This document shows, piece after piece, positions 7,579 through 62,792 of a stretch of DNA of 64,000 bases. Made by a program: the position numbers and the translations under genes. The stretch covers positions 1-64,000 of the forward strand of contig PABA01000027.1 in NCBI GenBank assembly GCA_002699025.1, read 5' to 3'. Origin of the DNA: Sandaracinus sp. Lineage in GTDB: Bacteria > Myxococcota_A > Polyangia > Polyangiales > Houyiibacteriaceae. Every line of letters begins with the position of its first letter. The first letter of the stretch is position 1. Below the pieces are notes generated by a model. It did not search any database. It was given only the letters and a program-made list of their open reading frames with translations, and was not told where the DNA came from.

Positions 7579-8236
7579 CGGCCGTAACCTACGCGCCGAA
7601 GCGCGCACCCTCCCTTGGAAAATGGAGCCGGAACCGAACGACTCCGAGCCCCCCGCGCCCATCCCCACGCACCCATCCCCACGCGCCCATCCCCACGCGC
7701 CCATCCCCGTCGTGCTCGTCCTCGTGCACGTGCACGTGCTCGTGCTCGTGCTCGACGGAGCGCTCGGTGGGGAGCTCGAGCACTCCGCGGGGGCTCCTGG
7801 CCGGGGCTCCACTCGCGCTCGGCTCCCTCGCAGGCTGGTCGCTCGGGCTCGAGGTCGCACTCGGGCTGGAGCTCGTCGCTCTGGCTCGCGCTCCGCCGCC
7901 TGGGTTCGGGCTCTTGCTCGCGCTGGTGCTCACGCTCGGGCTCGCGCTCGCGCTCTCCCGCTCGGGCTCTCTCGCTCGGGCTCGGGCTCCTCGCTCGAAC
8001 TCGGGCTTCCCCGTCGGGCTCGCGCTCACGCCGACGCTCACGCCTCCGAGGCCGACGAGTGGCCGCTCATCGGGAACACGACCCTCGGTTCCCCGGCCCC
8101 CGACCCCCATCTCCCCGCGCGGCCCGGGCCGCCGGCGCGCCGTACACCCCACGACGCTCCTGCTCTGCGCTCCGGTCGCTTCCCCCGCGTCAGCGGGCAC
8201 GGGCAGGGGCACGGGCACGGGCAGGGGGGCGGGCCA
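7579..8236. repeat. Composite hexamer-repeat element
   Basis: This gene-free 658-bp stretch lies between two minus-strand genes. It carries several (A)CGCGCCCATCCCC units near 7656-7708, then a CTCGTG/CTCGTC hexamer run with the palindrome CGTGCACGTGCACG at 7723-7736. A long stretch of GGGCTC/CTCGCG-rich words follows, and GGGCAC hexamers at 8197-8225 end it. Frames through it encode only periodic His/Val or Arg/Ser text on both strands, so I do not call a gene. Confidence 0.75.
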
Positions 8237-27167: not shown

Positions 27168-27488
<321 letters not shown>

Positions 27489-34539: not shown

Positions 34540-36591
34540 ATGACTCTCGGCACTTGGTGCCACTTTCGGATCGGCGCGCTCGCACCGATGCTCGCGCTGC
34601 TCGTGCTCGGCTGCGGGGACGACGACGGTGCGCGCGACGCGGGCCTCGCCGACGCGGCGGTCGACGCCTCCCCCGACGCGGCCGCCGACGCCGGCCCGAC
34701 CGTGGCGACCTCCGTCTTCGACCCGGCCGCGGACCTGACCGTCCCGGCCGCCTTCTACGACCTCCCCTTCCCCCTCGACACGCGCCTCCGGGACGGGCGC
34801 CCGGACCTGCGCGGCTGGCCCCACGCCCCCGAGAGCGAGGCCGCGCCGGCCATCCGCGACCTCGCCGCAGACCGGCGCGGCTTCGGCGCGCTCGGCGCGG
34901 TCTACTTCCGCTTCGACGCCCCGACCGGCATCGACCTCCGCGACGCCCGCGCGCCGACTCCCGCCGACCCGCTCCTCCTCGTCGACGTCGACCCGGCCTC
35001 CCCGGAGCGTGGCCGCCTCTACCCCCTCGTCGCCGGCGACATCCCCCCGGACGCCTACGCCCCGCCCCACCTCCTCGCCCTCGCCCCGCTCCCCGGCGTC
35101 GTCCTCCCGCCTGGCCGCGCCCACGCCTTCGTCGTCCGCCGCGGCGCCGCCGACCTCGCCCCCGCGCCCGCCTTCGAGGCCCTGGGGGCCGGCCCCCTCG
35201 CCGACACCTACGCCCCGCTCTGGGAGACGCTCGCGACGCTCGGCGTGCCCCGCGAGGACGTCGTCGTCGCCTCCATCGTCACCGCCCACGACGTCGTCGC
35301 CGAGACCGCCGCCCTGGCCGATCGGGTGGCCGCCGAACGGGTGGCCGCCGGCCATGCCCCCGAGCTCCAGGGCCTCGCCCTCGACCCCGACGACGGCGCC
35401 GCGCACGCCCGCTTCTGCGAGCTCCACGCGACCCTCGAGGTGCCCCGCTTCCAGCGCGGCGAGCCCCCCTACGACACGGGCGGCCTCTTCGCCTTCGACG
35501 CCGAGGGCGCGCCGATCCCCCAGACCACGGACTCCATCCCCGTCGTGCTCACGGTCCCGCGCGCGCCCATGCCGGAGGGGGGCTTCCCGCTCGCCCTCTA
35601 CGTGCACGGCTCCGGCGGGCTGAGCGGCCAGGTGGTCGACCGCGGCCCGGTGAGCGACCGGGGCGGCGAGCGGGCCAAGGGCCTCGGCCCGGCGCACGAG
35701 CTGGCCCTCTCCGGCATCGCCGCCGCCGGGAGCGCCATGCCCGTGAACCCGGAGCGCCTCCCGGGCGCCGACGACCGCGCCTACCTGAACTTCGAGAACC
35801 TCCCCGCCTACCGCGACACCTTCCGCCAGGGCGTGCTCGAGCTGCGCCTGCTCCTCGACGCCATCGAGCGCCTCGCCCTCGACCCGGAGGCGCTCGAAGG
35901 CTGCGCCGGGCCGACGCTCCCCGAGGGCACGAGCGCCTTCACCTTCCGGCCGCGCGTCGGCATGGGCCAGTCCATGGGCGCGCAGTACATCGTGCTCTTC
36001 GCGGCCATCGACCCGCGCATCGAGGCGCTCGCGCCGACCGGGAGCGGTGGCTACTTCGCGCTCCTCTCGGAGGCGCTCGGGCTCGCTCCGGTGGTCGGCT
36101 CGCTCCTCGGCACGCGCCGCCGGCCGGGGCTGCTCCACCCGGGGCTCCAGCTCACGCAGCTCGCCTGGGAGCCCGCCGAGCCCTTCGTCTCCATGCCGCG
36201 CCTGACGACGCGCCCGCTGCCCGGGCACCCGCGCCGGCCCCTCTACGCGCCGCTCGGCGAGAACGACTCCTTCTTCCCCGAGCCGGTCTTCGATGCGGCG
36301 GCCGTGGCCTACGGCGCGCAGCAGGTCGGCGAGGAGGTCTGGCCCGAGACGCAGCGCTGGCTCGCGGCGGCCGGCCTCGGGGGCGTCGCCTCGTACCCCG
36401 TGCGCGCCAACCGCGCGGGCGTCAGCTCGGCGGTCGCCCAGTTCGAGCCCGATGGGCTGGTCGACGCGCACCACGTCTTCATGCAACGCCCCGAGGTGCG
36501 CCGGCAGTGGCGCTGCTTCTTCGAGACGCACCTCGCCGGCGACGCGACGCTCGTCGCGCCCGTCCCCGACGCGGACCTCGCCTGCGAGTGA
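34540..36591 (+). CDS. Large alpha/beta-hydrolase lipoprotein
   Basis: The 683-residue protein has a lipoprotein signal ending LLVLGC and an Asp/Ala linker (25-50), typical of exported myxobacterial proteins. A beta-rich N-terminal part (55-330) precedes a hydrolase domain. LALYVHGSGGLSG gives the oxyanion region, and Ser478 in GMGQSMGAQY is the nucleophile. An acid and His are expected near the end, with VDAHHVFMQRPEVRRQW as the candidate His site. The build resembles secreted bacterial lipases with a virulence-factor-lipase type N-domain, but the substrate is open. A 13-bp tandem repeat follows the stop. Confidence 0.78.
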   Translation: MTLGTWCHFRIGALAPMLALLVLGCGDDDGARDAGLADAAVDASPDAAADAGPTVATSVFDPAADLTVPAAFYDLPFPLDTRLRDGRPDLRGWPHAPESEAAPAIRDLAADRRGFGALGAVYFRFDAPTGIDLRDARAPTPADPLLLVDVDPASPERGRLYPLVAGDIPPDAYAPPHLLALAPLPGVVLPPGRAHAFVVRRGAADLAPAPAFEALGAGPLADTYAPLWETLATLGVPREDVVVASIVTAHDVVAETAALADRVAAERVAAGHAPELQGLALDPDDGAAHARFCELHATLEVPRFQRGEPPYDTGGLFAFDAEGAPIPQTTDSIPVVLTVPRAPMPEGGFPLALYVHGSGGLSGQVVDRGPVSDRGGERAKGLGPAHELALSGIAAAGSAMPVNPERLPGADDRAYLNFENLPAYRDTFRQGVLELRLLLDAIERLALDPEALEGCAGPTLPEGTSAFTFRPRVGMGQSMGAQYIVLFAAIDPRIEALAPTGSGGYFALLSEALGLAPVVGSLLGTRRRPGLLHPGLQLTQLAWEPAEPFVSMPRLTTRPLPGHPRRPLYAPLGENDSFFPEPVFDAAAVAYGAQQVGEEVWPETQRWLAAAGLGGVASYPVRANRAGVSSAVAQFEPDGLVDAHHVFMQRPEVRRQWRCFFETHLAGDATLVAPVPDADLACE

Positions 36592-36597
36592 GCCGCG

Positions 36598-36715
36598 CGG
36601 GAGGCGAACACGGGAGGCGAACACGGGACGCGAACACGGGACGCGAACACGGGACGCGAACACGGGACGCGAACACGGGACGCGAACACGGGACACGAAC
36701 ACGGGGCGCGCACGC
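36598..36715. repeat. 13-bp tandem repeat array
   Basis: Eight successive GAACAC words occur exactly 13 bp apart (36606, 36619, 36632 and on to 36697), with the unit GAACACGGGACGC. The first units and the last are degenerate. Because 13 is not a multiple of 3, the same peptides recur in all three frames, which argues against coding. The array lies between the lipase stop and the mobA-like start. Confidence 0.9.
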
Positions 36716-36790
36716 GGGAGGCGGCCGCGGCCCGCCATTGCTCCCGAGGCGCCCTTGGGAAAGAGTTCGTTCATGGGAGAGAGTGCGCCG

Positions 36791-41166: not shown

Positions 41167-42018
41167 ATGAGCGCGACCCCCGAGGTGAAGACGCACGCCG
41201 GCGTGGCCATGCCCGCGATCGTCTACGGCACGGCCTGGAAGGAGGCGCGCACGGCGGCGCTGGTCGAGCAGGCGCTCGCGGCCGGCTTCCGCGGCGTCGA
41301 CACGGCCTGCCAGCCGAAGCACTACGACGAAGCGGGGGTGGGCCGAGGCCTCGCCGCCGCGATCGCGCGCGGCGTCCCGCGCGAGGCGCTCTACGTGCAG
41401 ACCAAGTTCACGCCCATCCGCGGTCAGGACCCGAAGCGCGTCCCCTACGACCCGGCCGCGCCGCTCCCGGAGCAGGTCGAGCAGTCCGTCGCGCGCTCGC
41501 TCTCGAACCTCGGCGTGGAATGCCTCGACGGGCTCTTGCTGCACTCCCCGCTCCCGACGATGGCGGCGACGCTCGCGGCCTGGCGCGCCTTCGAGGCGGC
41601 GCATGGAGACGGGAAGGTCCGCCAGCTCGGCGTGAGCAATTGCTACCACCCCGAGGTGCTCGAGGCGCTCTGGGAGGCGGCGCGCGTGAAGCCCGCCGTG
41701 CTGCAGAACCGCTTCTACGCGGACACCGGCTGGGACGTCGCGCTCCGAGCCTTCTGCGCCGAGCGGGGCGTCGTCTACCAGAGCTTCTGGACGCTCACGG
41801 CGAACGGCGCCGCGCTGGAGAGCGCGCCCGTGCGCGCGGCGGCTCGGGCGCATGGCAAGACGGCGGAGCAGGTCTTCTACCGGGCGCTGACGCAGCGGGG
41901 CATCGTGCCGCTGATCGGGACGACCTCGGAGGCGCACATGCGCGAGGACCTGGCGATCTTCGGCTTCACGCTCGGGGAGGCGGAGCTGGCGGGGGTGATG
42001 GGCTTGGTGGGGGGCTGA
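41167..42018 (+). CDS. Aldo/keto reductase
   Basis: The 283-residue enzyme has the catalytic tetrad Asp45 (GVDTA), Tyr53 (KHYDEAGVG), Lys80 (VQTKF) and His126 (LLLHSPLP). NAD(P)H-binding elements lie toward the C-terminus (GIVPLIGTTSEAHM). Related proteins reduce aldehydes and ketones to alcohols; the substrate is not predictable. Its stop is followed at once by the composite repeat element. Confidence 0.93.
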   Translation: MSATPEVKTHAGVAMPAIVYGTAWKEARTAALVEQALAAGFRGVDTACQPKHYDEAGVGRGLAAAIARGVPREALYVQTKFTPIRGQDPKRVPYDPAAPLPEQVEQSVARSLSNLGVECLDGLLLHSPLPTMAATLAAWRAFEAAHGDGKVRQLGVSNCYHPEVLEALWEAARVKPAVLQNRFYADTGWDVALRAFCAERGVVYQSFWTLTANGAALESAPVRAAARAHGKTAEQVFYRALTQRGIVPLIGTTSEAHMREDLAIFGFTLGEAELAGVMGLVGG

Positions 42019-42413
42019 GGGGGGAAAAGAAACCCGTGCCCCTGCCCGTGCCCGTGCCCCTGCCCGTGCCCGCAGGCGGACGAACGGAACGCGGGAAGAA
42101 CCCCGTGCCCCTGCCCGTGCCCGCAGGCGGACGAACGGAACGCGGGTCCCCTCGTGGTCTCCGAGCGCTACGTCCTCGTCCTCGTCCTCGTCCTCGTCGA
42201 CGTGCACGTGCACGTGCACGAGGACGTCGCGGGCGGACCGAGGGAACGGCGAGGCGCGCCATCGAGGCGGAGCCGTCCCGGCCGAAGAACGCTCCCATCC
42301 TCCTCCCGCGGGCACGGGCAGGGGCACGGGCACGGGCACGGGTTCCCGAAGGCTTCGCCTTCTCCCACCTTCCTCCCGCGGGCACGGGCACGGGTGTCCC
42401 GAAGGCTTCGCCT
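42019..42413. repeat. Composite inverted-repeat element with CGTGCA palindromic core
   Basis: This is the fullest copy of the family. Left arm: CCCGTG/CCCCTG hexamers at 42032-42075 and again at 42104-42131, each followed by GCAGGCGGACGAACGGAACG. Centre: GTCCTC hexamers into the perfect 20-bp palindrome of CGTGCA at 42201-42220, then AGGACG. Right arm: GGGCAC hexamers at 42305-42346 and 42376-42398, the inverted complement of the left arm, each followed by a CCCGAAGGCTTCGCCTTC hairpin. The last hairpin overlaps the alpha-E gene stop. No gene is supported. Confidence 0.85.
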
Positions 42414-43387
<974 letters not shown>

Positions 43388-43391
<4 letters not shown>

Positions 43392-51338: not shown

Positions 51339-52104
51339 GCGACTGCCCGCCTCCTCCGCGAACGCGGCCCCCTCCGCAGCACGTCGCGCCGCCGCACGGA
51401 CGGCGGACGGCGGAAAGCCTCGAGCGCGCAGCGCGAGCGTGACGCGACGGCCCGCCTCCCCCGCGAACGCGGCCCCCTCCGCCGCACGTCGCGCCGCCCC
51501 ACGGACGGCGGACAGCGGACGGCATAAAGCCGCGAGCGCGCAGCGCGAGCGAACCGCGACGGCCCGCCTCCTCCGCGAACACGGCCCCCTCCGCCGCACG
51601 TCGCGCCGCCCCACGGACAGCGGACAGCGGAAAGCCGCGAGCGCAACGCGCGAGCGAAACGCGACGGACCGCCTCCTCCGCGAACGCGGCCCCCTCCGCC
51701 GCACGTCGCGCCGCCCACGGACGGCGGACAGCGCACGGCAGAAAGCCGCGAGCGCGCAGCGCGAGCGCATCGCGACGGCCCGCCTCCTCCGCGAACGCGG
51801 CCCCCCTCCGCCGCACGTCGCGCCGCCCCCACGGACAGCGGACAGCGGACGGCGGAAAGCCGCGAGCGCAAAGCGCGAGCGAAACGCGACGGCCCGCCTC
51901 CCCCGCGAACGCGGCCCCCTCCGCCGCACGTCGCGCCGCCCCACGGACGGCGGACAGCGGACGGCGGAAAGCCGCGAGCGAAACGCGACGGACCGCCTCC
52001 TCCGCGAACGCGGCCCCCTCCGCCGCACGTCGCGCCGCCCCACGGACAGCGGACAGCGGACGGCGGAAAGCCGCGAGCGCGCAGCGCGAGCGCAGCGCGG
52101 GCGC
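51339..52104. repeat. Minisatellite: seven direct units of about 93-120 bp
   Basis: Each unit contains CGCCTCCTCCGCGAACGCGG (or the CCC variant), CCCCCTCCGCCGCACGTCGC, then CGGACAGCGG/CGGACGGCGG copies, GAAAGCCGCGAGCG and GCGCAGCGCGAGCG. Units start near 51348, 51450, 51567, 51671, 51781, 51896 and 51990. Small indels vary unit length. The array ends directly at the wrbA stop. Frames through it are broken by the indels, so I treat it as non-coding. Confidence 0.9.
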
Positions 52105-62664: not shown

Positions 62665-62668
62665 AGAC

Positions 62669-62705
62669 CCGTGCCCCTGCCCCTGCCCCTGCCCCTGCCC
62701 GCAGG
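62669..62705. repeat. CCCCTG hexamer run, degenerate composite element
   Basis: ACCCGTG followed by four CCCCTG hexamers and a CCCGCAGG end lies just past the thioredoxin stop. The CCTCGTCGACGT near 62750 may be the remnant of the palindromic core. Confidence 0.7.
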
Positions 62706-62792
62706 CTGAAGAGCGGATCACGGCCCCCTCGTGCCCGCCGAGCCCCCGTCCTCGTCGACGTGGGCTGCAACCCCGACCGGAACCGCACTCCC

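Follow-up and report, generated by a model that had tools for sequence, protein, structure and literature searches.

Fold-back elements and MITEs carry inverted arms around a variable middle and are without coding capacity. Among dispersed bacterial repeats, REP elements are entered by IS621, an insertion sequence of the IS110 family (PMC11208160). Rehm et al. (2015) described quadruplex-forming heptamers, GGGAATC and GGGGA(C/T)T, in Xanthomonas and Nostoc (PMC4692102). These heptamers lie almost exclusively nearer to the ORF on their 5' side, whatever the orientation of that ORF; the cause was left unexplained, no function was found, and there was generally no association with mobile elements (PMC4692102). 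Here we analyse positions 42019-42413 of a 64,000-nucleotide stretch of DNA from Sandaracinus sp., an uncultured myxobacterium; the stretch is called the window throughout. The closest published parallel to the repeat at this locus is the GGGAATC repeat of Xanthomonas. We propose, with moderate confidence, that the element is a lineage-specific, non-coding dispersed repeat with two inverted arms that has spread at the DNA level.

Architecture of the locus and its copies

The element occupies the entire gap between two convergent genes, as judged from home-made codon-model gene calls and Pfam (Table 1). Inward from each gene, the arrangement is one or more (CCCSTG)n arrays, a body of ~45-80 bp and a central CGTCCT/CGTGCA array. 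The first-pass annotation had described a large inverted repeat with a palindromic centre, and this description holds. The arms are exact complements over up to 31 bp (42043-42073 with 42308-42338), whereas 40 dinucleotide shuffles gave no more than 14 bp; at 42201-42220 lies the palindrome CGTGCACGTGCACGTGCACG, free of mismatches and exactly 20 bp in length. Both of the GAAGGC-TTC-GCCTTC side hairpins that it listed are also present. Its picture of one long hairpin stands in part: the sequence folds strongly (z = -7.4 as RNA, z = -7.1 as DNA), but both arms are tandemly duplicated, with a 51-bp unit of array tail plus body on the left and a unit of about 53-70 bp on the right. The locus is thus no simple inverted repeat but a nested composite. 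Included in the right-hand duplication is side hairpin 2, which overlaps the stop codon of the Alpha-E gene; given this overlap, the two hairpins seem to have arisen by a tandem duplication that captured the tail of that gene. Named relatives of the Alpha-E protein come mainly from Myxococcota metagenome assemblies.

Table 1 Features of the composite element, its neighbouring genes and further arms of the family in the window
Feature	Position	Strand	Remarks
Aldo/keto reductase gene, left neighbour	41167..42018	+	Codon-model call; Pfam PF00248, E 2e-25; ends at element
A-rich lead GGGGGGAAAAGAAA before left array	42019..42032	+	A enriched at -4..-1 ahead of 152 arrays
Left arm (CCCSTG)6CCC; C-rich strand directed away from left gene	42033..42071	+	
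Left body, first copy (GCAGGCGGACGAACGGAACGCGGG + AAGAAC)	42072..42101	+	51-bp tandem duplication, 45/45 nt identical
Left arm, duplicated (CCCSTG)3CCC array	42102..42122	+	
Left body (GCAGGCGGACGAACGGAACGCGGGTCCCCTCGTGGTCTCCGAGCGCTA), common to other composite loci	42123..42170	+	Own-genome copies 83-89% identical
Central CGTSCW hexamer array: (CGTCCT)4 CGTCGA (CGTGCA)3 CGAGGACG	42171..42226	.	Contains palindrome 42201-42220
Right body (TCGCGGGCGGACCGAGGGAACGGCGAGG...AACGCTCCC...CTCCCGC), common to other composite loci	42227..42309	-	83-91% identical copies, own genome only
Right arm (CCCSTG)5CCC on minus strand, directed away from right gene	42310..42342	-	
Side hairpin 1, GAAGGC-TTC-GCCTTC (GAAGGCTTCGCCTTC)	42348..42362	.	
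Right arm, duplicated (CCCGTG)2CCC array	42380..42394	-	
Side hairpin 2 (GAAGGCTTCGCCTTC), overlapping right gene's stop codon	42401..42415	.	
Alpha-E domain gene, right neighbour	42414..43391	-	Pfam PF04168, E 6e-76
Other family arm in window	8193..8234	-	9 bp after stop of protein kinase/TPR gene
Other family arm in window	27429..27466	-	22 bp after hydrolase gene
Other family arm + degenerate left body in window	62668..62754	+	3 bp after thioredoxin gene

The element's own genome (G000) is a fragmented 9.24-Mb draft, of which we sampled about 1.4 Mb, mostly contigs known to carry arrays; array densities are approximate owing to this sampling, and orientation tests should be little affected by it. 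The left and right bodies each recur in ~8 copies in the own genome, between different, unrelated genes and at 75-91% identity, which makes the composite a dispersed one, shared by ~8 loci. Outside these composites, bodies are mostly locus-specific beyond about 13-25 bp, and a search across the family returned only the central hexamer part from relatives. The arm motif is far more numerous, with 543 matches to (CCCSTG)3CCC in the own genome. Arrays have a very patchy distribution over the phylum: they occur in 48 of 282 genomes, few of which have many, and are absent from many relatives within the same family. They cluster unevenly between contigs and make up 0.4% of the own-genome sample.

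The array itself is a directional unit, (CCCNTG)5CCC with A-rich and GCAGG flanks, and not a tagged imperfect palindrome of 20-40 bp. Across 152-153 arrays the upstream flank is A-rich and the downstream flank reads GCAGGCCGAAGGG. With each cluster represented by a single array, 103 independent arrays remain, of which 60 have exactly five units and only 3 have six. The variable base of the hexamer is also position-specific within the array (p = 1e-12). This peak and the position-specific base make the arrays look like consensus copies and not products of free slippage. Gaps that carry arrays are about 150-270 bp longer than array-free gaps.

Other tandem repeats occur in the window. A degenerate CTCGGG/CTCGCG array (7812-8043), another quadruplex-type hexamer, shares its gap with the arm at 8193-8234. 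A 13-bp tandem repeat, CGGGACGCGAACA, is present in 9.7 copies at 36598-36723, in the gap after a plus-strand frame ending near 36591, and seven copies of a repeat of about 105 bp with internal GGACGGCGGA/GGACAGCGGA alternation lie at 51339-52099. Elsewhere in the own genome, tandem units of array plus spacer include the last codons and stop of the adjacent gene (G000:C128:34030-34444 and G000:C100:71880-72042), from which we conclude that gaps grow by gene-tail duplication.

Outward polarity of the arrays

We assessed the placement of arrays relative to genes using calls from the home-made codon model; Pfam matches on the called strand were obtained for ten genes that carry an array at the 5' end. 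Within 1.27 Mb of the own genome, 86 arrays were intergenic and 2 genic. Density was highest in convergent gaps and 2-60 bp past stop codons, and the share of gaps with arrays was about 15% where the genes converge, 5.5% where they run in the same direction and 2.6% where they diverge. Siting between convergent genes, as first annotated, is correct for the locus at 42019-42413 and amounts to a preference, not a rule, for the family.

Orientation followed a stricter pattern. In own-genome gaps with arrays of one orientation, the array lay closer to its 5' neighbour than to the other gene in 52 of 54 cases, the C-rich strand being the outward strand that points away from the nearest gene. Gaps with both orientations always had the order '+ then -' (14/14). 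Two further genera of the family behaved alike, with outward polarity in 14 of 15 cases and '+-' order in 3 of 3, both in G010 and in G002. The first-pass annotation would have been refuted by a lack of copies elsewhere and of arm complementarity in them; neither holds, given the ~8 composite loci and the oppositely oriented arms, in '+ then -' order, of 20/20 two-orientation gaps over the three genera. Between same-direction genes, own-genome arrays were 14 sense to 13 antisense, and the outward rule is therefore independent of transcription. Outgroups from other families with the same hexamer gave no significant polarity in small numbers (G309, 5/14; G029, 10/15). We also considered general GC skew at gene ends as the cause and rejected it, skew being only about 0.03 in array-free gaps. 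The flanks differ between genera despite the common rule, with AGT ahead of the array in G010 (L142-L181) and hairpins in G002 (L254-L273).

Origin of the element and alternative readings

Composite dispersal, fixed polarity, '+ then -' order, blindness to transcription and tandem duplication of arms together describe the family, and the element has the look of a DNA repeat, either structural or able to spread itself, and not that of a gene or an RNA. Polarity, '+-' order and the 14:13 ratio lead us to prefer a DNA-level, transcription-blind, two-armed repeat of the REP, fold-back or MITE type over a terminator or a structured RNA. Each arm would comprise an A-rich lead, (CCCNTG)~5 CCC and GCAGG, and in full copies the arms would enclose two bodies and the central CGTGCA/CGTCCT palindrome. 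We surmise that such elements settled the gaps between genes through DNA-level copying or recombination on the two fold-back arms, survived best in gaps without a promoter, and often lost all but one arm. The arm that is left would still be directed outward, the other parts of the element having lain behind it. With no enzyme assigned, the element would be non-autonomous or no longer active.

Signs of mobility are mixed. Terminal inverted repeats are present, as the exact arm complement at the locus and in other two-armed gaps too. One-armed gaps contain single opposite-orientation units near the far gene, which weakly favours their being reduced two-armed forms. Target-site duplications were absent from 17 two-armed gaps (mean longest direct repeat 1.8, versus 2.0 when shuffled), and the element thus lacks a defining feature of MITEs. 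We rejected REP/RAYT identity, having found no tagged palindrome and no Y1/RAYT transposase gene (PF01797 is absent from G000, G002 and G010). No transposase or autonomous partner with the same ends was found in the fragmented assembly, where repeats break contigs. Comparison with relatives gave 11 shared gaps, one of them informative: in G002 this gap holds an array, which its own-genome equivalent lacks (83 versus 32 bp). In G002, a 17-bp perfect gene-tail hairpin and then a five-unit array follow an acylphosphatase-like gene (L272, 3921-4020); the own-genome counterpart (G000 C214:26478-26509) has neither. Since the stop-codon hairpin differs there as well, this gap lacks the array without being a clean empty site. 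We also rejected gene cassettes bounded by arrays (5 genes with arrays on both sides, 3.6 expected) and a phage or plasmid origin, which returned no matches. The first-pass annotation had suggested a non-autonomous mobile element or a chromosome-organising site; both stay plausible, but the former comes with no target-site duplication or assigned transposase.

The arrays are themselves entered by another sequence. All four detected left ends of one IS-like element in the own genome lie inside CASGGG arrays, where they adjoin the array GGG in one orientation and in one GGG^CA phase. Copies of this element (CAGAGATGCAATGAAGGGGGTCGAATCC..., ORF MKTYDNEPALYIALDVGSTTWVLA...) are at L212:6316-6466 and at L295, L296 and L297, on G000 contigs C47, C173, C53 and C143. 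Contigs end inside it, and the 24 readable residues matched no profile.

Selection would explain the polarity conserved in three genera just as well, and the repeat may have a function in the host. The arrays might be a polar DNA site whose CCCNTG units are read by a protein that marks or organises gene boundaries, for example as a transcription or nucleoid boundary. We regard this as a tentative alternative, improbable yet deserving attention. It would fit the strict polarity and near-fixed unit number within one family, the sequence-specificity of that polarity, which is absent from other quadruplex motifs, and a rule common to three genera although their flanks differ. A selected site sits less easily with arrays in so small a share of convergent, same-direction and divergent gaps, with the many same-family relatives that have none, and with the uneven clustering between contigs.

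A terminator or 3'-end element, acting through C-rich Rho-type RNA past the stop codon or as a bidirectional long hairpin between convergent genes, is unlikely. The density maximum in convergent gaps and just past stop codons and the strong fold of the locus would suit it, as would hairpins of at least 8 bp ahead of 36% of 3' arrays in G002 (2% of controls). Inverted gene-tail copies ahead of arrays are strong in G002 and weak in the own genome. Given the hairpins between stop codon and array, the G002 array appears to begin just past the transcript end; because hairpins precede it, the array is not the terminator there, and the own-genome pre-array segment is no more structured than controls. 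Half of the one-armed arrays in same-direction pairs, moreover, are antisense and just upstream of a start codon, and the reading is weakened by 5'-end arrays that follow the same outward rule antisense to the gene. We give slightly less credence still to a dedicated machinery of this bacterial family, either a protein that binds DNA sequence-specifically or an enzyme that adds repeats from a template, which would put in place or keep up outward-pointing CCCNTG arrays of a set unit number and mark gene boundaries independently of transcription.

Action through a G-quadruplex is quite improbable. The G-rich (GGGCAN)n strand is a canonical quadruplex motif by sequence, a repeated G3N3 whose variable base falls in the loop, and similar repeats of Xanthomonas and Nostoc form quadruplexes in vitro (PMC4692102). 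Other quadruplex motifs in own-genome gaps, however, are without an outward polarity (3' ends, 15:25; 5' ends, 13:32), and on these grounds we rejected selection for the quadruplex; in outgroups the same hexamer lacks polarity, and Xanthomonas has the opposite, G-rich strand outward. Microsatellite slippage with intergenic tandem duplication, involving no element at all, is very improbable: it would account for hexamer tandem arrays, for the tandem duplications, frequent and locus-specific, that take in gene tails and for the appearance of outgroup arrays, but not for the peak at five units with its sharp fall at six, the position-specific unit bases, the conserved flanks, the polarity or composite spacers common to several loci. 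The structured RNA entertained in the first-pass annotation has the least to recommend it, since despite deep folding energy there is no Rfam family match, orientation is blind to transcription (sense to antisense 14:13) and 1 of 23 consensus pairs covaries among only seven close sequences.

Comparison with known repeats

The two-armed repeat that we favour shares with fold-back elements and MITEs its inverted arms, here built of short tandem units, and its non-coding nature. It differs in having no target duplication or partner transposase and in middles that are mostly locus-specific. Like REP, BIME and REPIN sequences, it is dispersed and intergenic, forms opposite-orientation pairs (20/20 here), lies between convergent or same-direction genes and serves as an IS target (PMC3733652, PMC2817692, PMC3116915). 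Its unit is a polar hexamer array, whereas theirs is small, palindromic and tagged with GTAG or CGTC. The IS-like element enters arrays at a fixed phase, much as IS621 enters REPs (PMC11208160), but has candidate status only, with no profile match to its 24 residues.

The outward polarity known from the Xanthomonas and Nostoc heptamers thus recurs in a phylum unrelated to theirs, where the unit differs and the other G/C strand is outward, and it is lost for the same hexamer in outgroups. Because unit and strand differ here and the outgroup hexamer is non-polar, polarity is separable from quadruplex chemistry and from mRNA-level causes, and the question of its origin thereby becomes testable. 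The arrays may also account for part of the intergenic growth in large myxobacterial genomes. Both sets of repeats are simple repeats of long units, mostly intergenic and no further than about 50 bp from gene ends, and both have a preferred unit number, four there and five here (PMC4692102). In both, the 5'-side ORF is nearer irrespective of orientation (52/54 here, on the C-rich strand), inverted pairs are frequent (in Xanthomonas, among the heptamers) and divergent gaps are avoided (PMC4692102). The published unit is a heptamer with the G-rich strand outward (PMC4692102), whereas ours is a hexamer with the C-rich strand outward, set in a composite with conserved spacers, a palindromic centre and IS-like insertions in its arrays.
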